Shown: piece by piece, positions 16,558-34,145 of the stretch | Numbering within the stretch: the first letter of the stretch is position 1 | Layout: each line of letters opens with the position of its first letter | Translations under genes and position numbers: made by a program | Notes under the pieces: generated by a model | What the model was told of the DNA's origin: nothing | The model's database searches: none | The model's input: only the letters and a program-made list of their open reading frames with translations | Assembly (NCBI RefSeq): GCF_000473085.1 | Contig: NZ_AXBA01000012.1 | Coordinates: forward strand, 1 to 56,905 | Direction of reading: 5' to 3' | Source: Azorhizobium doebereinerae UFLA1-100 | Lineage (GTDB): Bacteria; Pseudomonadota; Alphaproteobacteria; Rhizobiales; Xanthobacteraceae | DNA: 56,905 nucleotides

Positions 16558-16561
<4 letters not shown>
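15908..16561 (-). CDS. purN: Phosphoribosylglycinamide formyltransferase
   Basis: 217 residues. It converts GAR to formyl-GAR with 10-formyl-THF, the third step of purine synthesis. [13 protein letters not shown] is the phosphate-binding N-terminus. [27 protein letters not shown] (catalytic Asn/His region) and [13 protein letters not shown] (catalytic Asp) follow. Its start overlaps the purM stop by four bases, so translation is coupled. Confidence 0.96.
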
Positions 16562-17628
<1,067 letters not shown>

Positions 17629-18117
17629 TCCATCCTCGCGCCGTCCACGCGGCGGGTCTTTGCCCGCGTGCGCCAAGCGCGCGGCTTAGCCGCGAACCGC
17701 GCGCGAGGCAAGGCGCGGCTTTGCAGGGCATGCCCGAGCATAGCGCAATGATCCCCCGATGCCGGCACCGGCCGGCGGCGCCCATTCGCGGCCGGTAGCG
17801 CTGCCTCCGGGGAACGCCCCTCTGCGGCGGGCACCGCAGGCCAGTTGCCGGGCCGCCGAGAAATCTGCCCGCTTGGCCGAGACGCCCGCGCCGGGTCAGC
17901 CATGTATTTCAAAATGTAACAGCCCGCGGCAACCGCCGTTTCTCCGCGAAATGCCCGGCACGGCAAGATTTGTCCGCGCGAGATAGCGAGCGCTGTTTCG
18001 AGCCCGCAACAATCCGGCCAATTTTGGCGCGGGCAGACACGCCGGCCCCCGCTGACGCTGCGCCAGTGACGTGATAGTGCTTCGCCACCGCTGGGAGGTA
18101 ATGAGGAGCCGGTTTCC
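17629..18117. other. 489-bp intergenic region between purM and a secreted-protein gene
   Basis: Divergent promoter region for purMN (leftwards) and the large secreted protein (rightwards). It holds an AT-richer spot around 17904-17925 (TATTTCAAAATGTAA) that could contain a promoter, and a GGGAGG/GAGGAG stretch just before 18118. I see no gene, RNA or repeat in it. Confidence 0.5.
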
Positions 18118-20601
18118 ATGCCGTCCGTCACGGGTAAGAAAGCACTGGCGCTGGGCTTGGTTGCAGCGCTGCTGGGCGGAAGCCCGGTGTGGGCGCAGCA
18201 ACCCAGCACTTCCGCGCAGTCCGCGCAGTCCGCGCCGATCGGCGCGCCGGGCCTGGCCTGGCCCCGCAATTTCGATGTAGGCGACAACCGCCTGCAGCTC
18301 TACCAGCCGCAGATCGAGAGCTGGGAAGGCGACCTCATCGGTGGCCGCGCCGCCCTGGCCATCGGGCCGAAGGACGGCGCTCCGGTCTATGGCTATGCCC
18401 ATTTCACGGCGCGCGCGACCGTGGACAAGAGCGCCGGGCTCGTCCACCTGGAAGCCATCGCCGTCGACACGGTGGACGTGGCCACCGCGCCCCAGCAGGC
18501 CGGCGCGGTCCGCAAGGCACTGGAATCGCGGCTGCCCAAGAACGGCATCACCGTGGCGCTGGTGCAGTTGCAGGCGAGCTACGCGGTCAACAAGAAGATC
18601 GCCGACCTGCGCACGCAGCCGGTGCAGAACGAGCCCCCGAAGATCGTCTTCGTCAGCACGCTGACCATCCTGGTGCCCGTCGCCGGCCAGCCCGTGCTGC
18701 GGCCGGTGGACGGCGCGCGCGAGTTCCAGCGCGTCATCAACACCCAGCCCCTGCTGCTGAAGGATGCCGCCGGCACTTTCCACCTCCAGGCAGCCGGCGC
18801 CTGGTATGAAGCCCCCAGCCTCGCCGGCCCTTGGGTGGTGACGCCGCAGGTGCCCCAGGCGCTCCAGGCCGCGGCCAAGGCCGCCGTCAAGACGCAGAAG
18901 GCCGACCCGCTGCTGTCGCAGGACGGCAAGCCGGTCACGCCCCCGCCGGCGATCCGCGTCGCGACCGAGCCGACGGAACTGATCCAGACCAACGGCCAGC
19001 CCGAGTTGCTGCCGGTGGACGGCACCCAGCTGATGAGCATGAAGAATGCGGACCATGCGGTGTTCATGGACCCCAATTCCAATGCCTATTACGTGCTGAT
19101 CTCCGGCCGTTGGTTCCGCTCCACCAGCCTGGACGGGGCCTGGAGCTACGTGGCGAACGACGCCCTTCCGGCGGATTTCGCCAAGATCTCGACCAACGAT
19201 CCCAAGGCGAACGTCCTGGTGTCGGTGGCCGGCACGCCGCAAGCCAAGGAGGCGGCGATCGCCGCCACCATCCCGCAGACCGCCACGGTGAAGAAAACCA
19301 CCACCGCCAAGGTGAGCTATGACGGCGAGCCGAAGTTCGTCGCCATTCCCGGCACGGTGCTGAAATATGCGGTCAACACGCCCCAGCCCGTGATCCAGGT
19401 GGATCGCGGCACCTATTACATGGTCTCGCAGGGCGTGTGGTTCGTCGCCGCCAGCCCCATGGGGCCGTGGAAGGTGGCAACCTTCGTGCCGGAGGTGATC
19501 TATACGATCCCGATCACCTCGCCGATCTCCTACGTCACCTACGTCCGCATCTATTCGGTGCAGCCGGAGACGGTCGTGGTGGGCTACACCCCCGGCTACA
19601 TGGGCGTCATCGTCCAGCCCGGCGGCACGGTGGTCTACGGCACCGGCTATTATTGCAACGGCTATGTGGGCACCTACTGGTACGGCTGCCCGGCCACCTA
19701 TGGCTACGGCGCCGGCTTCTCCGTCGGCTCGGCGGTGGGCTTCGGCTTCGGCTTCGCCGCCGGCTGGGCCTGGGGCGCGGCGGTCACGCCCTATTGGGGT
19801 CCCTATTGGGGCGCCGGACCGTGGGGCGGCCATTGGGGCTATGTGAACGTCAACGCCGCCAACGTCTACGGGCGCTGGGGCGGCGACGCGGTGGTCGGCC
19901 ACGCCTGGGGCACGACGCCGTACGGGACGGAGTGGGGCGCGCGCGGCGTCGCCGGCACCACCGCCCGCGGCACCGATTTCCAGGGCCGCTCGGCCGCTGC
20001 CTTCAACCCCTACACCGGCAACTACGCCGCCGGGCGTGAAGGCAGCTACCACAATCCCTATACGGGCGCCTCCGGGGCCGGCCGCGCCGGCGTCGAGGGC
20101 AATGCCTACACGGGCAACTATGCCGCCGGCCGTGAGGGCGTGGAACACAACCCGGCCACGGGCTCCACCGAGGCGGCCCGCGCCGGCACGGTGGGCAATG
20201 CCTATACCGGCAATGCGGCCGCCGGCCGGCAGTCGGCGGGCTACAACACCACCACCGGCACCGCCCATGCCTCGCAGACCACGGCGACCCGCGTGGACGG
20301 CCAGGTGAATGTGGACAGCAAGGGCGTCGCCACCAACCAGCACACCGGAAACTCGGTCGCCTGGAACAATGGCAACGTCTACACGGACCACAACGGCAAC
20401 ATCTACCAGCACGACGGCTCCGGCTGGAGCCAGCGGTCGGGGAACAGCTGGCAGCCGGTGGACCGCTCCGCGGACATGAGCGGCCTCGACAGCGAACGCC
20501 AGGCCCGGGACTGGAGCAGCCAGCGCGCCTATGGCGGCGGCGACCGCTTCGGTGGCGGGGGCTACGGTGGTTTCCACGGCGGCGGCGGTTTCCGCCGCTG
20601 A
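18118..20601 (+). CDS. Large secreted repeat protein of unknown function
   Basis: 827 residues with a Sec signal peptide (hydrophobic core LALGLVAALLGG, cleavage near VWA-QQ). The first half repeats a module with motifs like YYVLISGRWF and YYMVSQGVWFVAASPMGPW. A Gly/Tyr/Trp-rich stretch follows (about residues 500-595). Three 32-residue repeats begin at residue 630 (DNA 20005, 20101, 20197), each opening N-x-Y-T-G-N. The tail is Gly-rich and ends FRR. This looks like an exported surface or periplasmic protein; carbohydrate binding is often suggested for similar proteins, but nothing here proves it. Confidence 0.8.
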   Translation: MPSVTGKKALALGLVAALLGGSPVWAQQPSTSAQSAQSAPIGAPGLAWPRNFDVGDNRLQLYQPQIESWEGDLIGGRAALAIGPKDGAPVYGYAHFTARATVDKSAGLVHLEAIAVDTVDVATAPQQAGAVRKALESRLPKNGITVALVQLQASYAVNKKIADLRTQPVQNEPPKIVFVSTLTILVPVAGQPVLRPVDGAREFQRVINTQPLLLKDAAGTFHLQAAGAWYEAPSLAGPWVVTPQVPQALQAAAKAAVKTQKADPLLSQDGKPVTPPPAIRVATEPTELIQTNGQPELLPVDGTQLMSMKNADHAVFMDPNSNAYYVLISGRWFRSTSLDGAWSYVANDALPADFAKISTNDPKANVLVSVAGTPQAKEAAIAATIPQTATVKKTTTAKVSYDGEPKFVAIPGTVLKYAVNTPQPVIQVDRGTYYMVSQGVWFVAASPMGPWKVATFVPEVIYTIPITSPISYVTYVRIYSVQPETVVVGYTPGYMGVIVQPGGTVVYGTGYYCNGYVGTYWYGCPATYGYGAGFSVGSAVGFGFGFAAGWAWGAAVTPYWGPYWGAGPWGGHWGYVNVNAANVYGRWGGDAVVGHAWGTTPYGTEWGARGVAGTTARGTDFQGRSAAAFNPYTGNYAAGREGSYHNPYTGASGAGRAGVEGNAYTGNYAAGREGVEHNPATGSTEAARAGTVGNAYTGNAAAGRQSAGYNTTTGTAHASQTTATRVDGQVNVDSKGVATNQHTGNSVAWNNGNVYTDHNGNIYQHDGSGWSQRSGNSWQPVDRSADMSGLDSERQARDWSSQRAYGGGDRFGGGGYGGFHGGGGFRR

Positions 20602-20646
20602 GCCCGACGCCGCATCAGCTCAAGACGAGACACACGAGCAAGACGA

Positions 20647-20675
20647 AACGGGCGGCCGGGAGGCCGCCCGTTTTC
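20647..20675 (+). terminator. Rho-independent terminator
   Basis: ACGGGCGGCC-GGGA-GGCCGCCCGT, a perfect ten-base-pair stem followed by TTTTC. It lies 47 bases after the secreted-protein gene. The A-rich 5' flank means it could also act on the convergent glucosyltransferase transcript. Confidence 0.85.
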
Positions 20676-20707
20676 ATGTCCGGTGGCCGTCCCGGTGGCC
20701 GCGCAGC

Positions 20708-22579
20708 CTAAGCCGCCTGCTCCAGGTGGTCCCGCGTGTCGGGACCGGCGAGGCGCCGCAGGATCAGCGGCATGCGCCGCTCCTCCGGAATGGCGCAGAG
20801 GCCGCGCGCCGCCAGCCATGCGCCCGTGCGCGGGTCGGCGGTGACCACCGCGAACGGCACCGCCAGCCAGCACCCCGCCAGCAGCGGCGCCGTCCAGAAC
20901 AGCAGGGCCGGCGCACAGACGGCCAGGGCGGCGCCGACCAGGAGGCCGAACAGGGTCTGGCCCCACAGGCCCCGCCACGCGCTGGCCCATGACAGGGCAT
21001 GGGCATCGCGCACCTGCCCGTTCCAGCCCGCCCTGACCCTGCCGAGGGTAAGCCCCACCAGGAAGCGCGTGGTGGCCAGCGCCGTGATGGCCCCGAGCAG
21101 CAGCGAGAACGTCATTTCGAGCAGCGCCGAGGCGAGGAAGCGGACCGGCCCGCCGTAGGCGGCCACGCCGCCGCGCGTCAGCGCCACGTCGAGCAGCCCC
21201 GCGAGCTTGGGGAACTGCCCCAGCAGCAGCAGGCCGCCATAGAACCATGCGGTTTCCGGCCCGAGCGCCTCGGCCGCCTCGGCGCTCAATCCGGCAGCGG
21301 CGAACGGCAGCACGGCGAGCGCGACGGGCACCGCGGGAACGCAGGCGAACATGAGCACCGCCCATAGCAACTGGAAACGGCTCACCGGCTTCAGGCCGGA
21401 CAGGCCCTGGAGACGCAGATACTGCATGTTGCCCAGGCACCAGCGCAGGTCCCGGGCCACGAATTCGGCAATGGTGGGAGGATTCTCCTCATAGCTCTCC
21501 CCTTCCACCGGCATCACCCGCACCTCGTAGCCGGCGCGGCGCATCAGCACCGCCTCCACCTGGTCGTGCGAGAGGATCGGCCCGCCGAGCGGCGGGCGGC
21601 CGGGCAGCACCGGCAGGTGGCAGGCGGCATGGAACGGCTTCACGCGGACCAGCGCGTTGTGCCCCCAGAACGGGCCGCAATCGCCGGTCCACCAGCTTGC
21701 CCCCAGCGTGTAGCAGCGCATGCCGTGCCGCATGCCGAACTGGAAAATGCGGGCAAAGGCGCTGGCGCTCGGCATGCCCACCACGAGGCTTTGCAGGATG
21801 CCGATGCGCGGATGCCGGTCCAGGATGCGCGCCATGGCGAGGATGGCGGACGCCCCCATCACGCTGTCCGCGTCCAACGGCAGCATGTAGTCATAGTCCG
21901 CGCCCCATCGCTCGCAGAAGTCGCGGATGTTGCCGGCCTTGAAGCCTTCGTTGGTATCGCGACGCCGGTAGTGGATGCGCCGGCCGGCGTCCGCCTCGCA
22001 CCAGCGCGCCACCTCCGCTTCCTCGGCCTGGGCGACGTCGGGCCGAGACGTGTCGCTGAGCAGGAAATAGTCGAACTGGAGCCCGTGCGCCGTGGCGTCG
22101 AGGTCCGCCTTGACCGCCTTCAGACGCGCCACCGCCCGCGCCGGGTCCTCGTTGCGCAGCGTCATCAGGATGGCGGTACGGCCGGCGACGCGGCCCTCCT
22201 CGCGCGCGCCGCGCAGGAAGGGGGCGGCAACCTCCACGCCGCCGCGCGCCACGTGGGCGAGGACAAGGCCGATGGCGGCGTTCCAGAAACCAATCGCGAT
22301 CCAGGGCGTTGCCATGAGCACGCAGAGGAAGAGGAGGATGTCCGCCACCCGCCAGCCGGCCAGCCCCGCCAGATGCGCCGCCACGAGCCCGATCGCCGCC
22401 CAGGTGGCAAGGTTGAGCGCCAGGACGAGCAGCCGGCGGCCGGCCAGCGAGGGTGATCCGTGAAAAACAACGGGATCGTGTTCGGCCGTTTCAGGATCTT
22501 GACGTAACACATGTGCATGCTGCGCAGTGGCACTGGGCCGGGACACACCCCGGCGCTTCGACATCGGCCGTGACGGCAT
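20708..22579 (-). CDS. mdoH: Glucans biosynthesis glucosyltransferase H (OpgH/MdoH-like)
   Basis: 623 residues from MPSRPMSKRRG at 22579, preceded by AGGGA. The order is two N-terminal membrane helices, a GT2 domain (RTAILMTLRNEDP, FLLSDTSRPD, LPLDADSVM, GPFWGHNALVR, then RDLRW in place of QxxRW), and several C-terminal helices. OpgH makes the beta-1,2-glucan backbone of osmoregulated periplasmic glucans. The usual partner opgG/mdoG is not next to it here. It is transcribed divergently from the dehydrogenase at 22646. Confidence 0.88.
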   Translation of the reverse strand: MPSRPMSKRRGVSRPSATAQHAHVLRQDPETAEHDPVVFHGSPSLAGRRLLVLALNLATWAAIGLVAAHLAGLAGWRVADILLFLCVLMATPWIAIGFWNAAIGLVLAHVARGGVEVAAPFLRGAREEGRVAGRTAILMTLRNEDPARAVARLKAVKADLDATAHGLQFDYFLLSDTSRPDVAQAEEAEVARWCEADAGRRIHYRRRDTNEGFKAGNIRDFCERWGADYDYMLPLDADSVMGASAILAMARILDRHPRIGILQSLVVGMPSASAFARIFQFGMRHGMRCYTLGASWWTGDCGPFWGHNALVRVKPFHAACHLPVLPGRPPLGGPILSHDQVEAVLMRRAGYEVRVMPVEGESYEENPPTIAEFVARDLRWCLGNMQYLRLQGLSGLKPVSRFQLLWAVLMFACVPAVPVALAVLPFAAAGLSAEAAEALGPETAWFYGGLLLLGQFPKLAGLLDVALTRGGVAAYGGPVRFLASALLEMTFSLLLGAITALATTRFLVGLTLGRVRAGWNGQVRDAHALSWASAWRGLWGQTLFGLLVGAALAVCAPALLFWTAPLLAGCWLAVPFAVVTADPRTGAWLAARGLCAIPEERRMPLILRRLAGPDTRDHLEQAA

Positions 22580-22645
22580 TGCGGATCCCTGGCGCGGAAT
22601 TCGGGGGAACGGGCAGTGAGGCGATACTCTCAGGAAGGTGTCCGA

Positions 22646-23656
22646 ATGGAAGCACAATCCGCACGCGAACGCTTGGCTCAAGCTCACTCTTCAGCGAGTG
22701 CCCTTTGGTACGTCGGGCCGCGCCGCGCGGATCTTCGCCGTGAGGATCTTCCTCTTCCGGGCCCTGATGAACTGCTGGTGGCAGCGCAATGGAGCGCGCT
22801 CAGCCGGGGGACGGAGCGGCTCGTCTTCTCCGGCCTTGTCGGCCCGTGCCACAGGGAGCGCATGCGCGCGCCCATGCAGGATGGCGAATTCCCCTTCCCG
22901 GTGAAATACGGCTATTGCAGCGTCGGGCAGGTGGAGGCCGGCGGGCCACGCTTCCTCGGCCGCAACGTCTTCGTGCTGCATCCCCACCAGGACCGCTTCG
23001 TGGTGAAGCGGGACGACGTGGTGCTGGTGCCCGAGGCGGTGCCCGCCCGCCGGGCGACGCTCGCGGCCAACATGGAGACCGCGCTGAATGCGCTCTGGGA
23101 CAGCGGCGCTGGCGCTGGCGACCGCATCATCGTGGTCGGGGCGGGACTGATCGGGCTGCTCATCACCTTCCTCGCCGCCGGCCTGCCGGGAGCCGAGGTG
23201 GTGGCGGTGGATCCTGACCCGGCTCGCGGCGCCCTGGCGCGGGCGTTCGGCGCACGCTTCACCGACCGGGCGGATGCGGCGGGCGAGGCGGACGTGGTGT
23301 TCCACACCAGCGCCTGTTCGGAAGGGCTCGCCGCGGCATTGGCCTGCTGCGCCATGGAGGCGAGCCTGGTGGAAGTGAGTTGGTATGGCGACGCGCCCGT
23401 GACGGTGGCGCTCGGCGGCAACTTCCACGCCAAGCGGCTGCGGCTGATCTCCTCCCAGGTCGGCGCCGTGCCGGCGCCCCGCGCCCCGCGCTGGCCGCTG
23501 AAGCGGCGCCTCGCCAAGGCCCTCGATCTGCTCGCCGACCCGCGCCTCGATGCGCTCATCACCGAGGAAGTGGCGTTCGCCGATCTGCCGGATGCGCTGG
23601 AGCGTATCCTGGGGGACGGCCCGCCCGGCGTCGCCACAGTCGTGCGCTATTCCTGA
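22646..23656 (+). CDS. Zinc-type alcohol dehydrogenase-like protein (MDR superfamily)
   Basis: 336 residues from ATG 22646, behind AGGAAGG. It is a medium-chain dehydrogenase/reductase: a GroES-like N-terminal domain (LSRGTERLVFSG), then a Rossmann fold with IIVVGAGLIGLLITFLAAG and an acidic AVDPD that favours NAD(H). The Cys-rich structural zinc loop of classical ADHs is not evident. It heads a tight four-gene operon with a PTPS-like protein, a glycosyltransferase and a methyltransferase, so it probably oxidises or reduces a pathway intermediate. Confidence 0.82.
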   Translation: MEAQSARERLAQAHSSASALWYVGPRRADLRREDLPLPGPDELLVAAQWSALSRGTERLVFSGLVGPCHRERMRAPMQDGEFPFPVKYGYCSVGQVEAGGPRFLGRNVFVLHPHQDRFVVKRDDVVLVPEAVPARRATLAANMETALNALWDSGAGAGDRIIVVGAGLIGLLITFLAAGLPGAEVVAVDPDPARGALARAFGARFTDRADAAGEADVVFHTSACSEGLAAALACCAMEASLVEVSWYGDAPVTVALGGNFHAKRLRLISSQVGAVPAPRAPRWPLKRRLAKALDLLADPRLDALITEEVAFADLPDALERILGDGPPGVATVVRYS

Positions 23657-23692
23657 GCCGCTTCCCTGTCCATCGTCCGCCGGAGTGCCCTC

Positions 23693-24127
23693 TTGCCCAA
23701 CGCCCCCCTTGCCAGCGGCCCGCTTTATGCGGTGGAAGTCCGGGACCACATCATGATCGCCCACAGCTTCAAGGGCGGCCTCTTCGGCCCCGCCCAGGCG
23801 CTGCACGGGGCGACCTTCGTGGTGGATGTCGCCTTCATGAGCGAGAACCTCACGCCCGAGGGCGTGGTGGTGGACATCGGCCGGGCCACCGAGGCGCTCA
23901 AGGCGGTGCTGGGCCCGCTCAACTACCGCAACCTCGACGACGAACCCGCCTTCGCCGGCCGCAACACCACCACCGAAGTGGTTGCCCGGCACATCTTCGA
24001 TGCCATGGCGGCGGCCGCGCGCGAGGGCCGTCTCGGCACCGGAGGCGACCGGCTGTCCCGGCTGCGCGTGACCCTGCACGAATCCCATGCGGCCCGCGCC
24101 TGGTTCGAAGGACCCATCGGCGCATGA
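23693..24127 (+). CDS. 6-pyruvoyl-tetrahydropterin synthase/QueD-fold protein lacking catalytic residues
   Basis: 144 residues from a TTG start, preceded by CGGAG; no better start fits. The PTPS/QueD fold is clear from IMIAHSF, LHGATFVVDV, NLDDEPAF, NTTTEVVARHIFDAM and VTLHES. By eye against QueD, the catalytic Cys is Ala, the HGH zinc pair is HGA, and the LDH catalytic Asp-His is LNY. Only two zinc His and the substrate-binding Glu remain. Normal dihydroneopterin-triphosphate chemistry therefore seems unlikely. It may bind a related pterin or pyrimidine, or catalyse something different. It overlaps the next gene as ATGA. Confidence 0.85.
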   Translation: MPNAPLASGPLYAVEVRDHIMIAHSFKGGLFGPAQALHGATFVVDVAFMSENLTPEGVVVDIGRATEALKAVLGPLNYRNLDDEPAFAGRNTTTEVVARHIFDAMAAAAREGRLGTGGDRLSRLRVTLHESHAARAWFEGPIGA

Positions 24128-25179
24128 GGGCAATCCTGGCCTTTCCCGGCACGCTCGACACGCCCACGGGCGGCTATGCCTACGACCGCGCGGTGCTCAA
24201 GGCCCTCCCCGGGCAAGGGGTCGCGATCGCGCCGCTGGCGCTGCCCCCGGCCTTTCCCTTTGCCGACCCTGCCGACCTCGATACCACGGCGCGGCACCTC
24301 CGCGCCGCGCCGCCGGACAGTGTCCTGCTGATCGACGGGCTCGCCCTCGGCGTGCTGCCGGCGGACATGCTGCGGGCGCTGGAGCAGCCGGTGGTCGCGC
24401 TGATCCACCACCCGCTGGCCCGTGAGGCCGGGCTCTCCGACGGGCAGAAGGCCCGCTTCGCGGCGAGCGAGCGGGCGGCGCTCTCCGCCTGCGCCGGGGT
24501 CATCGCCACCAGCCCCGCCACGGGGCGGGATCTGACGGCCCATTACGACGTCGCTCCCCACCGCCTCACCATCGCCGAGCCCGGCGTCGCCCCCGCGCCC
24601 CGCGCGGCGGCGGACGGCGACCCACCGCGCCTTCTCGCCGTCGGATCGGTCATCCCGCGCAAGAATTACGCGGGCCTTGTGGAGGCACTGGCGCAGGCCC
24701 GTGATCTCCGCTGGCAGCTCACCATCATCGGCGGCCTCGGTTTCGCGCCCGACACGGTGGCGGAGGTGCGGGCCCGCATCGCGCGTCATCAATTGGGCGA
24801 TCGCGTCACCCTTCATGGCGCGGTCGCGCCCGAGGCGCTGGAAGCGGCCTATGCGGCCTGCGACCTGTTCGTTCATCCCTCGCTTTACGAAGGCTACGGC
24901 ATGGTGCTGGCCGATGCCCTGCGCCGCGGCCTGCCGATGATCTGCACCACCGGCGGGGCAGCCGGCGAGACGGTGCCGGACGGCGCGGCCCTCAAGGTCC
25001 CGCCCGGCGACACGGCGGCCCTGGCTGCCGCGCTGCGGTCCCTGCTGGCTGCGCCGGCCGAACGCCGCCGGCTGGCGGATGCCGCGGCCCTTGCCGGTCG
25101 CGCCCTGCCCACCTGGGACGACACGGCGGCACGCATCGCCGCCGCATTGCGCGCCGTGCGCCACGCGGTGACGGCATGA
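24124..25179 (+). CDS. Glycosyltransferase family 4
   Basis: 351 residues, GT-B fold. The N-terminal acceptor domain opens with ILAFPGTLDTPTGGYAYDR. The C-terminal donor domain has LAVGSVIPRKNYAGLVEAL and HPSLYEGYGMVLADAL. The second acidic residue of the usual E-x7-E motif is Asp here. GT4 enzymes use NDP-sugars with retention. Overlaps of four bases with both the PTPS-like gene upstream and the methyltransferase downstream imply one translationally coupled unit. In this context the acceptor may be a pterin- or flavin-like molecule rather than a polysaccharide, which is inference. Confidence 0.88.
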   Translation: MRAILAFPGTLDTPTGGYAYDRAVLKALPGQGVAIAPLALPPAFPFADPADLDTTARHLRAAPPDSVLLIDGLALGVLPADMLRALEQPVVALIHHPLAREAGLSDGQKARFAASERAALSACAGVIATSPATGRDLTAHYDVAPHRLTIAEPGVAPAPRAAADGDPPRLLAVGSVIPRKNYAGLVEALAQARDLRWQLTIIGGLGFAPDTVAEVRARIARHQLGDRVTLHGAVAPEALEAAYAACDLFVHPSLYEGYGMVLADALRRGLPMICTTGGAAGETVPDGAALKVPPGDTAALAAALRSLLAAPAERRRLADAAALAGRALPTWDDTAARIAAALRAVRHAVTA

Positions 25180-26042
25180 GCGGCTTCTCCACCGACTGGC
25201 TCGCCCTGCGCGAGCATGCCGACCTGCGGGCACGCGATACCAGCCTCGCCCGCCTTCTCGGGGATCACCTGACCCGCCAGAGCCCCGTGCGAGTCGTGGA
25301 TGTGGGCGCCGGAACGGGCGCCAACCTGCGCGCCACCGCCCCCTATCTCGGCCCGCTGCAAAGCTGGCATCTGCTCGATCACGACCCCGAGCTGCTGGCG
25401 GCGGCGGGCAGCGCGCTCGCCGCCTGGGCGGACGAGGCCGAAATCGAAGGCAGCGGCCTGTTCCTCACCCGGGGGGCGCAGCACATCCACGTCACCGTGG
25501 AACTGGTGGACCTGTCCGCCCATCCGGAGGCGGCCGCCTCCCGCGCGCCGCATCTGGTCACGGCCTCCGCCTTCTTCGACCTCGCGTCCGCCGCCTGGAT
25601 CGAGCGTTTCACGGCGGCGGTGGCGCGGGCGCAGGCGGTGTTCTTCACCGTGCTCACCTGCGACGGGCGCAACGACTGGGCCCCGCCCCATGCCACCGAC
25701 GCCGCCGTTGCCGCAGCCTTCCGCACCCATCAGGGACGCGACAAGGGCTTTGGCCCCGCCGCCGGCGATGTGGCCACCGACCTGCTGCTGCATGCCTTCC
25801 ACCAGCATGGCTACGAGACCCGCGTGCAGGACAGCCCCTGGCTGCTCGACGCCGCCGATGCCGCCGACCGCCGCCTCATGGCGGCGCTCGCCACGGGCAC
25901 CGCCGACGCGGCGGGTGAGACGGGCTTCGTCCCGCCCGCGCGGCTCGACGCCTGGCTCGAAGCCCGGCAGGAGGCCCGGCAGTGCCGCATCGGCCATGCG
26001 GACCTTCTCGCCTGGCCGAAGACATCCCCCCAGCGGCGCTAG
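25176..26042 (+). CDS. Class I SAM-dependent methyltransferase
   Basis: 288 residues. Motif I VVDVGAGTGANLRATA and the acidic LLDHDPELL at the end of strand 2 define the SAM site. VTASAFFDLAS corresponds to motif IV. The start overlaps the glycosyltransferase stop (ATGA), so the product most likely modifies the same metabolite. The target atom cannot be deduced. The stop is 13 bp from the convergent cytochrome b561 gene. Confidence 0.85.
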   Translation: MSGFSTDWLALREHADLRARDTSLARLLGDHLTRQSPVRVVDVGAGTGANLRATAPYLGPLQSWHLLDHDPELLAAAGSALAAWADEAEIEGSGLFLTRGAQHIHVTVELVDLSAHPEAAASRAPHLVTASAFFDLASAAWIERFTAAVARAQAVFFTVLTCDGRNDWAPPHATDAAVAAAFRTHQGRDKGFGPAAGDVATDLLLHAFHQHGYETRVQDSPWLLDAADAADRRLMAALATGTADAAGETGFVPPARLDAWLEARQEARQCRIGHADLLAWPKTSPQRR

Positions 26043-26055
26043 ACGGTGTGGAGGT

Positions 26056-26601
26056 TCAGCGGCTGAGGCCGGGCAGCATGCGCGACAGCACGCCGTCGCG
26101 CCGGATGATGCCGTGATAGAGCCCGCCGGCGATGTGGGCGAGCACCAGGAGCGTCATGAAGAATCCGAGATAGGCGTGGATGTTGCCGTACAGATCCGAC
26201 ATGGCCTCGTTCTTCGGCACGAGGTTCGGCAAGGTAAACAAGCCGAACACGCTGACCTGCGCGCCGAAGGCCGAGGACGAGGCCCAGCCCAGCAGCGGCA
26301 TGATGAAGATCAGCGCATAGAGCAGATGGTGGACCGAATTGGCCGCGCGCCACTGCCAGTCGGGAATGCCCTCCGGGCGTGGCGGCGTGCCGAGGGCGAC
26401 CCGCACCGCCACGCGCAGAACCGAAAGGGTGAGAATCAGGATGCCCACGGATCGGTGCAGGTCGAACAGGCGGTCCTGCGCCGGCCCCGAAGGCAGGTTC
26501 ATCATGGCGATGCCGGCCGGGATCACGAACAGCACGGCGAGCGCCGTGAGCCAATGGATCCACCTAGCCGGTCGAGCATAAGGCACGATTTGCGTCGTCA
26601 T
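26056..26601 (-). CDS. Cytochrome b561 family protein
   Basis: 181 residues from MTTQIVPYARPARWIHW at 26601, behind GGGAGGGAG. It is a four-helix di-haem b membrane protein; His in RWIHWL, LHRSVG, VHHLLY and IHAYLG/LAHIAGGLYH are suitable haem ligands. Family members pass electrons between quinol and periplasmic acceptors. Its first 38 bases overlap the 3' end of the RibD-like gene, so the two are expressed together. Confidence 0.88.
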   Translation of the reverse strand: MTTQIVPYARPARWIHWLTALAVLFVIPAGIAMMNLPSGPAQDRLFDLHRSVGILILTLSVLRVAVRVALGTPPRPEGIPDWQWRAANSVHHLLYALIFIMPLLGWASSSAFGAQVSVFGLFTLPNLVPKNEAMSDLYGNIHAYLGFFMTLLVLAHIAGGLYHGIIRRDGVLSRMLPGLSR

Positions 26602-27316
26602 GGGCTCCCTCCCCGCCTGCGCTTCGGCGTAGATCACACGCGAACAACACGTCGCCGTCCGAGAACACATGGACGGCTGTCGCCGGCCGCAGCGCCTGCC
26701 TCAGGCTGGCAATGGGCGCGAGATCGAGGGCGGCCCGTCCGCTGCCCAGGATGACCGGGGACACGACGATATGGAAGCGGTCCATGCAGCCGGCATCGAG
26801 AAAGGCCGAGAGCGTGCGCGGCCCGCCTTCCACCAGGATGCGGGCGAGCCCGCGGGCGCGGAGCGCGTCGAGGATCGCCTGCGGCGCCAGCGGGCCGTCG
26901 GCCCCTCCCACCACGACGACCTCTATGCCGGCGGGGTGCGCCGGCAACTTGAGCTCTGCGGCAGGGCGTCGCACCACGAGCCGCCGCACGCCATCGTCCG
27001 CGAGGCAGCGGGCGTCCGGCGGCAGCCGGCCGGAGGGATCGATCACCACCCGCGCCGGGCTGCGGCCGGGCACGCGCCGCACGGTGAGCAGGGGATCGTC
27101 CGCCAGCACGGTGCCCACGCCCACGATCACCGCATCGACCATCGCCCGCAGGCGGTGGATGTGATCCAGCCCCGCCGGGCCGTTGATGTATTTGGATTCG
27201 CCCGAGGGCAGCGCGATGCGCCCGTCCAGCGACTGTCCCAATTGCCCGACCACGAATGCGGGAGAGGCATTGAGTTCGGCCAGGATCGTCCCCAAATCCA
27301 TGCTGCGGTCATCCAT
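26564..27316 (-). CDS. RibD C-terminal-type (DHFR-fold) pyrimidine reductase
   Basis: 250 residues. It matches the stand-alone reductase half of RibD: QSLDGRIALPSGESKYINGP, VDAVIVGVGTVLADDPLLTVR, RILVEGGPRTLSAFL and SPVILGSGR. No deaminase domain is present. The family reduces the ribosyl side chain of the diaminopyrimidine made by GTP cyclohydrolase II. It is divergent from a GTP cyclohydrolase II gene and close to the PTPS/GT/MT operon. I infer a specialised pathway rather than housekeeping riboflavin synthesis. Confidence 0.88.
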   Translation of the reverse strand: MDDRSMDLGTILAELNASPAFVVGQLGQSLDGRIALPSGESKYINGPAGLDHIHRLRAMVDAVIVGVGTVLADDPLLTVRRVPGRSPARVVIDPSGRLPPDARCLADDGVRRLVVRRPAAELKLPAHPAGIEVVVVGGADGPLAPQAILDALRARGLARILVEGGPRTLSAFLDAGCMDRFHIVVSPVILGSGRAALDLAPIASLRQALRPATAVHVFSDGDVLFACDLRRSAGGEGAHDDANRALCSTG

Positions 27317-27515
27317 GAGCGAAGCCTCACCGTATGGGACGAAGGGGGGTTAAGCCGGAACATGATGACGCTTAGCAAGGTTACGGACCCGCAGTCACCC
27401 CGGATGGGTTGCACAGTGCGCGTTCGTGCAAATTAAGATGGAACATCATTTCCGGCGGCTTTAGCGGCACGCCCCACTGTCAAACCCCTGATTTTCAGCG
27501 TATCGTGAGGCTCTC

Positions 27516-28628
27516 ATGTCTCCACCTGTGGAAATACCTGGTCTCTCCTTCGGTGCCACGCAGACGGCCGTCGAGCGCGCCATAGCGGAATTGCGCTCCG
27601 GGCGTCCCGTCGTCATCGGGTTCGAGGATCAGGCCCTGCTCGTCATCGGCGTCGAAGCGCTGGATGCTGGCATCGCTGAAGGTTTCACCGCTCTTGGGCC
27701 GGGGCTGGGCCGCCTTGTGCTGCCCGCGCCGCGCCTGACGCGGATCGGCGCGCCGCGCTCCTGCGCCGGCTCCATCGCGCTGCCCGACATGGACCTCGCC
27801 CGCATCGAGACATTGGCGCTGCGCATCGACGGACGCATCGACGCGCCGGTGGCGCTGGCGACCCCGCTCGACCGGGCCGCCCTGGAACTTCTCGGCTTCG
27901 CTTTGCTGCTCCCGGCCGCCGTCGTCACCCCCATCGCCGGCGACGCCCTTCCCCATCTTCTCCGGGTGGAGAAGGAGGACATCGCCGCCTTCCACAGCGA
28001 GCAGGTACGCTCCCTGCATGTGGTCGGCCGCGCGCCAGTGCCTCTGGAAGGGGCCGTGGATACGGAATTCGTCGTGTTCCGCGGCGGCGAAGGCCTGCGC
28101 GACCAGGTGGCCGTGGTGGTGGGCAAGCCCGACCTGACGCAGGCCGTCCCGGTGCGGCTGCATTCCGCCTGCCTCACCGGCGACCTGTTCGGCTCGCTGA
28201 AGTGCGATTGCGGCGACCAGTTGCGCGACACGGTGCAGCGCATGGCGCGCTCCAGCGGCGGCATCCTGCTCTATCTGGACCAGGAAGGCCGGGGCAACGG
28301 CATCGCCAACAAGATGCGCGCCTACCAGCTCCAGTCGCAGGGCTTCGACACCTATGAGGCCGACGCGGCGCTCGGCTTCGACCTCGACCAGCGGCGGTTC
28401 GACTTCGCGGCGGAGATGCTGCGCCAGCTCGGGGTCGCGGCGGTGGAGATCATCACCAACAATCCGCAGAAGATCGCCGCGCTGAAGGCAGCCGGGATCG
28501 ACGTGGTGGCCGACCGCCGCGTGCTCGGCCGCCCGACCGCCGAGAACGTGCGCTATCTCGCCTCCAAGCGCGACCGCGCCGGCCATTATATCGACTTCGA
28601 CGCCCTCACCGCCCGCGCCTCCGACTGA
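27516..28628 (+). CDS. ribA: GTP cyclohydrolase II with a degenerate N-terminal extension
   Basis: 370 residues. The C-terminal half is a complete GCH II: RLHSACLTGDLFGSLKCDC supplies zinc Cys219, Cys230 and Cys232, and DQEGRGNGIANKMRAYQLQ and IITNNPQKI carry the catalytic and GTP-binding residues. The first 170 or so residues look like a remnant DHBP-synthase-like domain without its acidic active-site signature. GCH II opens GTP to a diaminopyrimidine, releasing formate and pyrophosphate. A separate riboflavin pathway is usual in this order, so this copy may serve the neighbouring cluster. Confidence 0.92.
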   Translation: MSPPVEIPGLSFGATQTAVERAIAELRSGRPVVIGFEDQALLVIGVEALDAGIAEGFTALGPGLGRLVLPAPRLTRIGAPRSCAGSIALPDMDLARIETLALRIDGRIDAPVALATPLDRAALELLGFALLLPAAVVTPIAGDALPHLLRVEKEDIAAFHSEQVRSLHVVGRAPVPLEGAVDTEFVVFRGGEGLRDQVAVVVGKPDLTQAVPVRLHSACLTGDLFGSLKCDCGDQLRDTVQRMARSSGGILLYLDQEGRGNGIANKMRAYQLQSQGFDTYEADAALGFDLDQRRFDFAAEMLRQLGVAAVEIITNNPQKIAALKAAGIDVVADRRVLGRPTAENVRYLASKRDRAGHYIDFDALTARASD

Positions 28629-28643
28629 GCGGCACCGCGTCCC

Positions 28644-28686
28644 CGCCTCGCCGGCCCTGCGGCGAAGCTGAGGCGCGGCAAGGGTT
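28644..28686 (+). terminator. Possible terminator after ribA
   Basis: CGCCTCGCCG pairs imperfectly with CGGCGAAGCTGAGGCG, and a GGTTTTTCC tract follows. It lies 16-58 bases behind the ribA stop and before the SDR gene. The stem has an internal bulge, so the call is moderate. Confidence 0.45.
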
Positions 28687-28786
28687 TTTCCTCCCGATTC
28701 CGGATCCAAAAAAGCTGGAGCACAGCCGTCCCGGCGGTTGGCAACGGCATCGTCTCCTGATCTAAAACGATTTGGAGGATACGCGC

Positions 28787-29530
28787 ATGACCAGAAAAAT
28801 CGCGATCGTGACGGGGGCGGGCTCGGGCGTCGGCAAGGCCGTGGCCCTGGGTCTCGCGGAAGCCGGCTATACGGTGGCCCTGGCCGGCCGGCGAGCGGAT
28901 GCGCTCGAATCCGTCGCCAAGGAGATCGGCGCCGAAACGCTGGCGGTGCCGACGGATGTGACCGATCCCGACCAGGTGGCGCGGCTGTTCGGCACGGTGC
29001 GGGACCGCTTCGGCCGGGTGGACGTGCTGTTCAACAACGCCGGCACCGGCGCGCCCGGCGTGCCGCTGGAAGACCTGACGGTGCAGGAGTGGCGGAAGGT
29101 GGTGGACACCAACCTCACCGGCCCGTTCCTGTGCACGCAGGAAGCCTTCCGCATCATGAAGGACCAGGAGCCGCGCGGCGGCCGCATCATTAACAACGGC
29201 TCCATTTCCGCCACCGCGCCCCGCCCGTTCTCGGCGCCCTACACGGCCACCAAGCACGCCATCACCGGGCTGACCAAGTCCACCTCGCTGGACGGCCGCG
29301 CCTATGACATCGCCTGCGGCCAGATCGACATCGGCAATGCCGAGACGGAAATGACCCAGAGGATCAAGGCCGGCATCATCCAGGCCGACGGCTCCCTGAA
29401 GCCGGAGCCGGTGATGAACGCCAAGCACGTGGCCGACGCGGTGGTCTACATGGCCAACCTGCCGCTGGACGCCAACGTGCAGTTCATCACCGTGATGGCC
29501 ACCAAGATGCCGTTCGTCGGCCGCGGGTGA
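28787..29530 (+). CDS. Short-chain dehydrogenase/reductase
   Basis: 247 residues from [16 protein letters not shown] at 28787, directly behind TTTGGAGGAT. The classical SDR set is present: TGxxxGxG, FNNAG, Ser in NNGSISA and YTATK. AGRRA after strand 2 suggests NADP(H). It is monocistronic and convergent with the FAD oxidase gene. The substrate is unknown; a link to either flanking pathway is possible but not shown. Confidence 0.92.
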
Positions 29531-29575
29531 GGCGCCGGGCGCCCTCGCTTTTCCAGCGGGGGCCGCCGGCCCCGG

Positions 29576-30757
29576 TCACACCACCTTCAGTTCCAGCACC
29601 GGGTCGTTCTCGGCCATGCGCGCGAAGCGCAGCGGCGCCAGATCGAGGGTGGTGAAGCGGCCGTGGACGATGAGCTCGGCGATCCCGCGGCCCACCGCCG
29701 GGGATTGTTGCAAGCCGTGGCCGCTGAAGCCGTTGGCGAAGTAAAAGTTCGACAGATCCGGCGCCGGCCCGACGATGGCGTTGTGGTCGAACGCGTTCAT
29801 GTCGTAGTGCCCGGCCCAGGCCCGGCCGGGCCGGATACGCTCGAAAGCCGGCACGCGCCCGGCCAGCACCGGCCAGATGCGCTCCTCGAAGAAGCCCACG
29901 TCCACGTCGAAATCCGTGCTGTCGGGGTCCTCCTCGTCCGGCGGGGCGAGCCCGCACAGGAAGCCTTCCCCCTCCGGCCGCCAGTAGACGCCGGTGGGAT
30001 CAATCACCAGGGGGCAGCGCTCCACGGGGTCGGGGCAGCGGAAGGTGAAGATCATCCGCTTCTTGTTGTGCACCGGGATCTCGATGCCCGCCGCCTTGGC
30101 GAGCGCCGGGCCGCCGGCCCCGGCCGCATTCACGACGGCGCCGCAGGAGATGCGCGTGCCATCCGCCAGCACCACGCCGGTGATGCGCCCGCCGTCGCGG
30201 ACCACGTCCACCGCCTGGGCCGCCTGATAGGTGACGCCGAGGGACCTCGCCTTGCGGCGGAACGCCTGCATCAGGCCATAGCCATCGAACCAGCCCTCGC
30301 CCGAGCGGCCGTAGCAGCCGGCGGCGAGGTCCGCCGTGGAAAGCCAGGGAAACGTGCCCTGGAGCTGGGTCGGGGTCAGCAGGGCGATATTGGCGCCGAG
30401 GCGCGCCTGGACGGCGTGGCCCGCCTCCAGCGCCGGACGTCCGCTGTCGGTCGCCAGGAAAAGATAGCCGCCCTCGTGCAGGCCGATGTCCGGGCGTTCG
30501 CCGTCCACGGCGAGATGGCTGCCGATGTCACGCAGGAAGGAGATGCCGTAGAGCGAAATCTCCACATTGATGGCCGTGGAATATTGCTGGCGGATGGATG
30601 CCGCCGACAGCGCCGAGGCGCAGCGCTGGTAGGTCGGGTCCTTCTCCAGCACCAGCACCGAGCCGGTGAAACCGGGGTCGGCCGCCAGATGATAGGCGAC
30701 CGAGCTGCCCACCGCCGCGCCGCCGACGATCACCACGTCATAATGCGCCTCGGCCAT
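29576..30757 (-). CDS. FAD-dependent amino-acid oxidase/dehydrogenase (DAO family)
   Basis: 393 residues. The N-terminal dinucleotide fold is VVIVGGAAVGSSVAYHLA with an acidic VLEKD. SALSAASIRQQYS is the segment where related DAO-family members hold FAD, and FANGFSGHGLQQSPAVGRGIAE is the conserved C-terminal FAD site. It is the last gene of an operon with a ThDP enzyme (4-bp gap) and an ALDH7. In lysine catabolism an enzyme of this family oxidises L-pipecolate; I assign that role here only by context. Confidence 0.82.
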   Translation of the reverse strand: MAEAHYDVVIVGGAAVGSSVAYHLAADPGFTGSVLVLEKDPTYQRCASALSAASIRQQYSTAINVEISLYGISFLRDIGSHLAVDGERPDIGLHEGGYLFLATDSGRPALEAGHAVQARLGANIALLTPTQLQGTFPWLSTADLAAGCYGRSGEGWFDGYGLMQAFRRKARSLGVTYQAAQAVDVVRDGGRITGVVLADGTRISCGAVVNAAGAGGPALAKAAGIEIPVHNKKRMIFTFRCPDPVERCPLVIDPTGVYWRPEGEGFLCGLAPPDEEDPDSTDFDVDVGFFEERIWPVLAGRVPAFERIRPGRAWAGHYDMNAFDHNAIVGPAPDLSNFYFANGFSGHGLQQSPAVGRGIAELIVHGRFTTLDLAPLRFARMAENDPVLELKVV

Positions 30758-30761
30758 CGGC

Positions 30762-32444
30762 TCAGGCTCCCTGGCGGGCGAGCGCCGCCGTGCGGATCGC
30801 CGTCAGCGTGGTCATGGGCGTGATGGCTTCCGGATCGAGCTTGCAGTGCAGGATGGCCGGCAGGCCGCTGGCCACGGCGCGGGCGAAGGCGGGGGCGAAA
30901 TCCTCGGTGCGTTCCACCGTCTCGCCATGGCCGCCGAAGGCGCGGGCGTAAGCTGCGAAATCCGGATTCTTCAGCCGCGTCGCCGAGATGCGGCCGGGAT
31001 ATTCGCGCTCCTGGTGCATGCGGATGGTTCCGTACATGCCATTGTCCACCACCACCACGATGATCGGGATGTCGTATTGCACGGCGGTCGCGAATTCCTG
31101 GCCGTTCATCAGGAAGCAGCCGTCGCCGGCGAAGGCGACCACCGGCACGTCCGGCTTCTGGCGCTTGGCCATCACCGCCGCCGGCACGCCATAGCCCATG
31201 GAGCCGGAGGTGGGCGCGAGCTGGGTGCCGCGCTGCCGCAGGCGGTAGTAGCGGTGCAGCCAGGTGGCGTAATTGCCCGCGCCGTTGCAGACGATGGCCT
31301 CGGGCGGCAGCGTGTCGCGCAGGTGGCGCATGGCCTCGCCATACTGGAACGGGCCGGGCAGCGCCGACGGCTGCTCGGTCCAGGCCAGATAGTCCGCATG
31401 GGCGGTCTTGGTATCCTCGGCCCAGCGCGGCGTCTGGCCGGGCGAAAGGGCGGACAGCGCCGCCACGAAGCTGCCGGGCGTCGCCTCGATGGCGAGGGCG
31501 GGCTGGTAGACCCGGCCGAGTTCCTCGGCGCCCGGATGCACCTGCACCAGGGTCTGGCGCGGCGCCGGAATGTCGATGAGCGTGTAGGAGGAGGACGGCA
31601 TCTCCGACATGCGCGCGCCCACCAGGATCAGGACGTCCGCCTCCTTCACCCGCGCGGCGAGCTTCGGGTTCAGGCCGATGCCCACGTCGCCCGCATAGTT
31701 GGGATGGTCGGCCGGAAAGAGATGCGCGCGGCGGAAGGAGGTGGCGATGGGCAGATGGTAGCGCTCGGAGAAGGCCACCATCCCGGCATAGGCCGCGTCG
31801 GTCCAGCGGCTGCCGCCGAGGATGACCAGCGGGCGCTCGGCGCCTTCCAGCAGGCCGGCGAGGCGCGCCACGTCGGCCGGATGCGGGAACGGCTCGGCCG
31901 GAGCGACATAGGGCGCGTCCGGCACCGTGGCGGTCTCCACCAGCACGTCCTCAGGCAGCGCGATCACTACCGGGCCGGGGCGGCCCTGCATGGCGACGCG
32001 GAAGGCGCGGCTGACCAGTTCGGGGATGCGCGCGGCATCGTCGATCTCCACCACCCATTTGGCGATGGAGCCGAACGCCGCCCGGTAATCCAGTTCCTGG
32101 AACGCCTCGCGCTCGCGCATGCCGCGCTCCACCTGCCCGACGAACAGGATGAGGGGCGTCGAATCCTGCGCAGCGATGTGCAGGCCGTGCGAGGCGTTGG
32201 TGGCGCCGGGGCCGCGCGTGACGAAGCAGATGCCCGGCCGCCCGGTGAGCTTGCCATAGGCGTCCGCCATCATCGCCGCGCCGCCTTCGTTGCGGCAGAC
32301 GAGGACGTCGATGTCCGCGTCATGCAGGGCGTCGAGCACGGCAAGGTAGCTCTCGCCGGGCACGCAGGTGATGCGCTCGGTGCCCTGGGCACGCAGTTGG
32401 TCCACGATCAATTGGCCGCCGGTACGGGATGTCAGCTCAGTCAT
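30762..32444 (-). CDS. Thiamine-diphosphate enzyme (acetolactate synthase-like family)
   Basis: 560 residues from MTELTSRTGGQLIVDQL at 32444, behind AGGATCC. The N-terminal Pyr domain has the activating Glu in CRNEGGAAMMADAYG. A central domain and a C-terminal PP domain with the ThDP/Mg motif GDGCFLMNGQE through VDNG follow. Catalytic decarboxylation or carboligation of a 2-oxo acid is expected. No small regulatory subunit is nearby, so it is unlikely to be the biosynthetic acetolactate synthase. In this operon a 2-oxoadipate-type acid would be a logical substrate (inference). Confidence 0.88.
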   Translation of the reverse strand: MTELTSRTGGQLIVDQLRAQGTERITCVPGESYLAVLDALHDADIDVLVCRNEGGAAMMADAYGKLTGRPGICFVTRGPGATNASHGLHIAAQDSTPLILFVGQVERGMREREAFQELDYRAAFGSIAKWVVEIDDAARIPELVSRAFRVAMQGRPGPVVIALPEDVLVETATVPDAPYVAPAEPFPHPADVARLAGLLEGAERPLVILGGSRWTDAAYAGMVAFSERYHLPIATSFRRAHLFPADHPNYAGDVGIGLNPKLAARVKEADVLILVGARMSEMPSSSYTLIDIPAPRQTLVQVHPGAEELGRVYQPALAIEATPGSFVAALSALSPGQTPRWAEDTKTAHADYLAWTEQPSALPGPFQYGEAMRHLRDTLPPEAIVCNGAGNYATWLHRYYRLRQRGTQLAPTSGSMGYGVPAAVMAKRQKPDVPVVAFAGDGCFLMNGQEFATAVQYDIPIIVVVVDNGMYGTIRMHQEREYPGRISATRLKNPDFAAYARAFGGHGETVERTEDFAPAFARAVASGLPAILHCKLDPEAITPMTTLTAIRTAALARQGA

Positions 32445-32503
32445 CGGATGGGATCCTGCCTCGTCGGCCAAAGGTCTCTGATCGGGGGTACGCGCGGGAC
32501 GGC

Positions 32504-34036: not shown

Positions 34037-34124
34037 GGGGGGCTCCCGGTTCAAAAACAAAGGCGGCGGCCGGGGCGGACGGACCGCGGCGTCGGTGTCC
34101 GGCAGGACCGTGATCGGAAGCCAT

Positions 34125-34145
34125 ATCATGGCTTCGCGTCATGAT
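34125..34145. promoter_or_regulatory. LysR-type operator (T-N11-A dyad)
   Basis: ATCAT-N11-ATGAT, a perfect dyad of the T-N11-A form recognised by LysR-type regulators. It sits in the 189-bp region between the ALDH7 operon and the divergent lysR gene, the classic place for such a site. Binding is inferred. Confidence 0.6.

Follow-up and report, generated by a model that had tools for sequence, protein, structure and literature searches.

In archaea and fungi, the early steps of riboflavin synthesis run through a GTP cyclohydrolase, the deformylase ArfB and the reductase ArfC, GTP being the starting material of vitamin B2. A second point of comparison is the SCO6650/SCO6655 region of Streptomyces coelicolor, for which we know of no product. 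SCO6652 is given as hypothetical in a table of PMC3610822, SCO6655 stands in a table of PMC2853524, and a 2006 paper on this system is cited in PMC3509567. Here, we analyzed a stretch of 56,905 nucleotides from Azorhizobium doebereinerae UFLA1-100 (assembly GCF_000473085.1, contig NZ_AXBA01000012.1, positions 1 to 56,905; hereafter, the window), in which a gene block at about 20711-28628 combines a GTP cyclohydrolase II (RibA) and a stand-alone RibD-type reductase with a relative of SCO6650 and with sugar, methyl and membrane genes. The genes of this block are inherited together and lie together, and some of the encoded enzymes have altered active sites. The best explanation, in our judgement about an even call, is that its genes together specify a single dedicated pathway of biosynthesis, with GTP as the starting point and the cell envelope as the end. 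The genes are as follows.

20711-22687, minus strand: MdoH/OpgH-like membrane glucosyltransferase of glycosyltransferase family 2 (GT2), cluster-specific subfamily (NCBIfam PRK05454.2-6, 956 bits, cut-off 884)
22646-23656, plus strand: medium-chain dehydrogenase/reductase (MDR), BchC-like at low score, no conserved Cys (Pfam and NCBIfam)
23693-24127, plus strand: SCO6650-type T-fold protein, related to PTPS/QueD, with its catalytic site lost (Pfam PTPS, 7.9e-22)
24124-25179, plus strand: glycosyltransferase of family 4 (GT4; Pfam Glycos_transf_1, 2.2e-28)
25176-26042, plus strand: predicted class I S-adenosylmethionine (SAM)-dependent methyltransferase (weak Pfam match, predicted model, Foldseek)
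26056-26670, minus strand, with a second ATG at 26601: cytochrome b561 (Pfam, 9.1e-30)
26564-27316, minus strand: stand-alone RibD reductase domain, cluster-specific, with a GQxGQSxDG motif (Pfam RibD_C, 3.6e-40)
27516-28628, plus strand: GTP cyclohydrolase II (RibA) of the PRK08815 type (Pfam GTP_cyclohydro2, 1.1e-48; NCBIfam PRK08815)

The seven genes from the MDR to RibA had been listed in a first-pass annotation of the window; all are open, with the positions and families given there, and the 38-bp overlap it reported between the cytochrome b561 and RibD genes is exact when the former starts at the ATG at 26601. The boundary of the block has to be drawn wider, for the divergent MdoH-like gene, which that annotation had missed, also belongs to it. 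ATGA overlaps join the stop of the PTPS-like gene to the start of the GT4 gene, and likewise the GT4 and methyltransferase genes. The start of the MdoH-like open reading frame (ORF) overlaps that of the divergent MDR gene; the family profile begins at residue 60, and the true start probably lies downstream of the ORF start.

To follow the block beyond the window, the A. doebereinerae genome (G000) and 60 relatives were examined, together referred to as the 61 genomes. The PTPS subtype was found with strong scores in 29 of them; a weak match in G025 (5.4e-4) was counted as negative. In the 28 stretches fetched around this gene, an MDR and a GT4 gene were present in all, the methyltransferase in 27, the MdoH-like gene in 25, RibD and cytochrome b561 in 21 each and RibA in 19, and the three stretches lacking the MdoH-like gene are contigs of 4.6-7.6 kb. 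A wider collection of 113 loci, six of them duplicates, left 107 distinct loci, among which GT4 (103), MDR (102), methyltransferase (96), MdoH-like (84) and RibD (71) genes were the most frequent, followed by cytochrome b561 (50), RibA (49), a CDP-alcohol phosphatidyltransferase (14), a creatininase-family protein (8) and an LPG-synthase-TM protein (8). An unsupervised count of families over 97 loci (kept from the 102 of the 113 loci that exceed 9 kb) returned the same top families, plus an FkbM methyltransferase (25), ATP-binding cassette (ABC) proteins (26, a group that holds several kinds of ABC protein) and a secreted protein (22); its figure for the PTPS gene (85 of 97) is too low, because short genes escape the ORF picker or are mislabelled by it.

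Searching species genomes with a profile gave at least 592 coding stretches for the PTPS subtype; the 80 best, which were the ones scanned, come from Alphaproteobacteria, Betaproteobacteria and one Xanthomonas. MDR, PTPS-like, GT4 and methyltransferase genes are linked in alpha-, beta- and gammaproteobacteria and in some Actinomycetota, and plasmid records of Thiodictyon, Streptomyces fungicidicus, Methylosinus, Microbacterium and Agrobacterium tumefaciens (pAt) carry the block or most of it. The S. fungicidicus plasmid groups MDR, PTPS, GT4, methyltransferase, creatininase, RibA and CDP-alcohol phosphatidyltransferase genes. Because the arrangement recurs in other genera and phyla, it is not due to chance. 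In several betaproteobacterial loci the methyltransferase gene sits on the far side of the MdoH-like gene, and the linkage thus holds without a fixed order. Cytochrome b561, whose position and strand vary between loci, is more loosely tied to the block, of which it may be a member: it is a frequent but positionally variable neighbour, as common as RibD in the 28 stretches and less so (50 versus 71) in the 107 loci. No description of the block was found in the open-access papers that our search covered, subscription papers lying outside it.

We then asked which genes track the PTPS subtype from genome to genome. The stand-alone RibD-type reductase occurs in 22 of the 29 PTPS-positive genomes and none of the 32 negative ones (Fisher p 7e-11, here and below with ancestry ignored), the RibA type in 20 versus none (p 1.6e-9) and the MdoH-like subfamily, defined by a score above 400 bits, in 27 versus none (p 2.6e-15), whereas the control OpgG shows no such pattern (12 of 29 versus 9 of 32, p 0.30). 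Profiles A1 and A3 draw mainly on block members from alpha- and betaproteobacteria, and absence means no match in the genome assemblies searched, a few of which are less than 90% complete. All 22 genomes with the RibD-type gene have it within 6 kb of the PTPS gene, and 19 of the 20 with RibA have that gene equally close. Among 398 Pseudomonadota genomes, a sample that overlaps the 61 genomes in G000 and G023 at least and is therefore not wholly independent, 27 carry the PTPS subtype (ten of these were fetched); the RibD subfamily is present in 24 of the 27 and in none of the other 371, its lowest member scoring 265 bits and the next-best protein 162 bits. The first-pass annotation had named co-occurrence in other genomes as a check and had grouped RibD and RibA with the PTPS set, and the results bear it out in both respects: MDR and GT4 genes accompany the PTPS gene in each of the 28 stretches, the families recur together in other genera and phyla, and both riboflavin-type genes follow its distribution.

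The RibD-like protein has 250 residues and consists of the reductase domain only, with no fused deaminase. It matches 6p8c (1.4e-25) and 2azn (3.5e-23) more strongly than Rv2671 (8.9e-12), and all 35 sequences of the subfamily share R57, D73, R80 and E163; the equivalent of R80 is His in 2azn and 6p8c and Arg in the aligned fused RibD proteins. Gln25 and Gln28 are likewise present in 35 of 35 sequences, and the GQxGQSxDG motif is found in 69 of the 71 distinct loci with RibD, the exceptions being L133, where the sequence starts after the motif, and Thiodictyon, which has His for the first Gln. Of 19 solved homologues listed, the five for which an alignment was shown have Lys or Asn at the first position and Ala, Met, Leu or Ser at the second. 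The block resembles the archaeal and fungal early riboflavin steps in pairing a GTP cyclohydrolase with a stand-alone reductase similar to 2azn and 6p8c, and in the creatininase-family protein of 8 of the 107 loci. It differs in having Gln25 and Gln28 where 2azn and 6p8c have Asn and Met, in the sugar, methyl and membrane genes that adjoin the reductase, and in that the bacterium holds a full RibD and RibE of its own elsewhere. A plain riboflavin locus was rejected on the latter ground, and because the RibD-type reductase was not found in the block-less genomes.

The PTPS-like protein belongs to the PTPS family by Pfam, and among solved proteins it has a close relative in SCO6650 only (PDB 3d7j, E 5.9e-44 over the whole domain, residues 10-139; 5.9e-55 with profile A1). 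PTPS and QueD have three zinc histidines and a Cys/Asp/His triad, and the protein departs from them at positions of both sets. The zinc-binding HGH is replaced by HGA in 113 of 113 loci (107 distinct; 111 by pattern and two by eye), and, when aligned with 3i2b, a PTPS of solved structure, the protein has Asn-Tyr in place of the Asp-His pair (the part shown does not reach the triad Cys). Glu130, presumably the pterin-anchoring glutamate, is invariant in 17 of 17 sequences (alignment A1). With the QueD equivalog model, the protein scores 38.2 bits against a cut-off of 89.25; on this score and the replaced residues, a queuosine QueD was rejected, and the ordinary PTPS/QueD activity implied by the first-pass annotation is not supported. 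The SCO6650 study reportedly detected neither zinc nor the triad nor any PTPS activity in that protein.

The PTPS fold and its conserved glutamate would also suit a pathway to pterin glycosides in which GTP cyclohydrolase I (FolE) provides the precursor and RibA is a mere neighbour. The T-fold protein and the MDR would then act on dihydroneopterin-type compounds, the RibD-like protein would be a dihydropterin reductase and the GT4 would attach the sugar, as happens in cyanopterin or limipterin. RibD_C is related to dihydrofolate reductase, pterin glucosyltransferases exist, and the RibA type is missing from 9 of the 29 PTPS-positive genomes, all of which would fit. Nevertheless, we regard this explanation as unlikely: the four invariant residues of the reductase occupy positions common to the aligned bacterial RibD proteins, the reductase is nearer to 6p8c and 2azn than to Rv2671, and RibA, where present, is almost always co-located with the PTPS gene.

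At its membrane end, the block contains a glucosyltransferase that scores above the NCBIfam cut-off for the family of OpgH, the partner of OpgG in periplasmic glucan synthesis. OpgG and a second OpgH lie elsewhere in the genome (G000:C22), and the MdoH-like protein is 37% identical to this OpgG-linked OpgH. The MdoH-like gene shows no link to OpgG across the 61 genomes. An OpgGH glucan locus was therefore rejected. In 14 of the 107 distinct loci a CDP-alcohol phosphatidyltransferase is found, and 13 of these 14 lack MdoH. In five of ten further loci this gene adjoins the MDR gene, as the MdoH-like gene does in the window (L191, among these five, also contains a more distant, weak MdoH match). 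It is accompanied by a flippase-like protein and a protein annotated as sulfatase. This exchange between the two membrane enzymes suggests that the product is probably handed to the cell envelope, onto a glucan or a lipid. In addition, 22 of 97 loci (for example, L074 5053-6084 and L040 5227-6183) encode a secreted-looking protein of about 310-340 aa next to the MdoH-like gene, with no Pfam match in the two members tested; it may work on the product once this has left the cytoplasm. A membrane protein of 550 aa encoded next to the CDP-alcohol gene also gave no Pfam match (one member tested); in one record, a protein in a similar position is annotated as sulfatase.

The three remaining core enzymes can be assigned in general terms. 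The MDR protein stays below the Pfam cut-off for ADH_zinc_N (29.2 versus 31.8 bits). It resembles the BchC dehydrogenase in that bchC is its best NCBIfam match, but the score is far from that of a true member (42.6 bits against a cut-off of 291). No invariant or nearly invariant Cys was seen in 34 MDR sequences (alignment A4), and the usual catalytic zinc should thus not be held. The methyltransferase is also below its Pfam cut-off (20.3 versus 27 bits). Its predicted model (mean pLDDT 96.4) is of the class I SAM fold, with SAM methyltransferases leading the best 50 of 1890 Foldseek matches (3mgg, TM 0.62); these 50 point to the general fold and give no hint of a substrate. The GT4, judged by family membership, would be a candidate pterin glycosyltransferase.

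RibA scores 533 bits with PRK08815 (cut-off 464), and both the zinc motif CxTGDxxxSxxCxC, present as CLTGDLFGSLKCDC, and the catalytic Tyr, in NKMRAY, are retained. Its N-terminal 180 residues (27516-28055) match no Pfam family; it may be a RibBA whose RibB half has decayed, which would make it the mirror image of RibBX. The genome's other Pfam GTP_cyclohydro2 match, a fusion with RibB, has no zinc cysteines in its second half (RibBX-like, G000:C2:243161-243604, L002 655-1965). Similar proteins were noted in PTPS-negative relatives (L179-L184 and L228-L257). RibBX proteins are reported from Aeromonas and Shewanella in PMC10012899, and a Bradyrhizobium RibBX study appears in the reference list of PMC8536739. 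The first-pass annotation had stated that its idea would be refuted if the RibA and RibD copies here were the only ones in the genome and needed for riboflavin. For RibA the first part is literally so, as no other GTP cyclohydrolase II that has zinc cysteines was found in the genome; for RibD it is not, because a full-length RibD lies next to RibE elsewhere (G000:C28) and the block reductase is, as that annotation had supposed, separate from the housekeeping copy.

This single copy gives weight to a different explanation, in which RibA does no more than provide for riboflavin synthesis and its neighbours form a locus for an envelope glycan or lipid, with the T-fold and RibD-like proteins recruited to sugar or lipid chemistry unrelated to GTP. 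In 14 other carriers, the block RibA reaches at least 160 bits in 12 (122 bits in L145, none in L132, a Polynucleobacter); a copy of at least 160 bits outside the block is present only in L131 (Martelella), L142 (Paracoccus), L145 (Acuticoccus) and L132. The block RibA is therefore the only high-scoring copy in 10 of the 14, including Agrobacterium larrymoorei L144 and Xanthomonas L139, and a shared or housekeeping RibA fits these genomes and our own. The frequent GT2, GT4, FkbM methyltransferase, ABC-transporter and lipid genes nearby and the lost catalytic residues of the PTPS protein agree with this explanation as well. However, the RibA type is confined to carriers of the block, which suggests a role in it, and Martelella, Paracoccus and Acuticoccus have a high-scoring copy outside the block as well as their block RibA. 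Moreover, of the 32 block-less genomes, three have the canonical enzyme (G037, G041 and G059) and six another Cys-bearing protein (G004, G025, G027, G035, G036 and G056). G009 gave no match and G045 could not be judged, and in the remaining 21 no zinc-Cys GTP cyclohydrolase II was found, only zinc-less RibBX-like halves. Riboflavin supply in this order thus seems not to rest on RibA. We consider it improbable, to about the same degree as the FolE-fed route, that RibA merely supplies riboflavin beside an envelope locus; it may have a riboflavin role alongside one in the block.

Either the 21 assemblies are incomplete or the enzyme that opens riboflavin synthesis in these block-less Hyphomicrobiales is unconventional. 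The Bradyrhizobium study reportedly met the same puzzle. A third class of GTP_cyclohydro2 proteins (L244-L247, L254 and L255; open frames of about 430-480 aa with the motif CNGSDVFGSDICTC) was also noticed, and could be the missing cyclohydrolase in the genomes that carry it.

Comparison of RibA across loci may point to a second version of the first step. In the 49 distinct loci with RibA, the catalytic position is Tyr in 46, Met in S. fungicidicus and Cys in L145, with L118 too partial to be read. The L145 protein of Acuticoccus (frame ending near 14050) also has a divergent zinc motif region; with a high-scoring copy elsewhere in that genome, the block copy is possibly of a third product type. 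The Met-type RibA of S. fungicidicus adjoins the creatininase-family protein. Such proteins deformylate the formyl compound FAPy in archaea, and Met at the catalytic position presumably marks SCO6655, which reportedly stops at FAPy. If so, the pathway would include GTP cyclohydrolase II chemistry in both phyla, though along two different routes. The window shares with the Streptomyces system its SCO6650-type PTPS-like protein. It differs in its RibA, which has Tyr where the Streptomyces copy has Met and should deformylate by itself, and in possessing the MdoH-like and RibD-type proteins and lacking a creatininase or CDP-alcohol gene in the block; the gene content compared here is that of the S. 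fungicidicus plasmid.

A pathway can be sketched from these assignments. RibA, whose residues are intact, would open GTP to 2,5-diamino-6-ribosylamino-4(3H)-pyrimidinone 5'-phosphate, and the RibD-type reductase would reduce this compound or a close relative, in the way that reductases of archaea and fungi act ahead of deamination. The T-fold protein, which lacks the zinc and triad residues and keeps the conserved glutamate, may bind the pyrimidine or a derived pteridine, either for a different reaction or as a scaffold. The BchC-like dehydrogenase, the GT4 and the SAM methyltransferase would tailor the compound, adding, we infer from their families, sugar and methyl groups. Finally, judging from the exchange of genes described above, a membrane enzyme (MdoH-like here, the CDP-alcohol phosphatidyltransferase elsewhere) would carry it into the envelope. 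Taken in full, as an undescribed pathway from GTP to a glycosylated, methylated and envelope-anchored diaminopyrimidine or pteridine compound, made by way of a RibD-derived reductase and a T-fold protein of new chemistry, the proposal is tentative, and we put it slightly below an even chance.

The first-pass annotation had already suggested a dedicated GTP-derived pathway. Co-inheritance and co-location support that suggestion, the sole canonical RibA copy counts partly against it, and we consider it, with moderate confidence, the best explanation. Several further observations count against the proposed pathway. Stand-alone RibD is missing from 7 of the 29 PTPS-positive genomes and a canonical GTP cyclohydrolase II, by score, from 8, and neither is therefore indispensable. 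In G076 the RibD gene lies about 62 kb from the PTPS gene, and L152 has no RibD. Arthrobacter L196 shows only the MDR, PTPS and GT4 genes, the GT4 gene is not beside the PTPS gene in L106, L129 and L142, and the Streptomyces plasmids L150 and L195 carry a PTPS gene without the block. Ten of the 107 loci have neither the MdoH-like nor the CDP-alcohol enzyme, although some of these are short contigs. The creatininase gene is no marker of the Met type, as it occurs with an ordinary Tyr-type RibA in 6 of 8 loci and without RibA in one. Lastly, the substrates given to the GT4, MDR and methyltransferase in the pathway are inferred from their sequences. As for the idea that the core scavenges or repairs damaged GTP- or folate-type intermediates and makes no new compound, the loss of catalytic residues in the T-fold protein could indeed mean a sensor or chaperone, but overlapping glycosyltransferase and methyltransferase genes with membrane enzymes look biosynthetic and only one of the 16 named recurrent families (creatininase, 7 of 97 loci) is a small-molecule hydrolase by name, which makes this idea very improbable.

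Some surrounding features were also recorded. In L150 and L195, the PTPS gene is surrounded by sigma factor, BTAD regulator, cupin and MBL-fold genes, a different context of the same T-fold family. Next to the block in the window, 18118-20598 encodes an 827-aa protein with no Pfam or NCBIfam match, which stands beside MdoH in the nearest genera and has two matching stretches in L038. Downstream, 28772-34129 holds genes for a short-chain dehydrogenase/reductase, a flavin adenine dinucleotide (FAD)-dependent oxidase, a thiamine pyrophosphate (TPP) enzyme and an aldehyde dehydrogenase (the last three named from their ORFs); their order is kept only in the nearest genera, and they look like a separate catabolic unit. 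No tRNA was found in the window. Within 16000-34000 no Rfam match reached the gathering score, and control of the block by a known riboswitch was rejected on this basis.

In summary, a set of genes that stays linked in different phyla probably yields a product of use, and a PTPS fold and a RibD-derived reductase have apparently been recruited in it to something new. The results also show that in many Hyphomicrobiales no GTP cyclohydrolase II for making vitamin B2 can be recognised. The block offers a defined place in which to seek the function of SCO6650, a protein of solved structure. If the proposed pathway is true, its compound would be placed on a glucan in bacteria that carry the MdoH-like enzyme and on a phospholipid in those that carry the CDP-alcohol phosphatidyltransferase.

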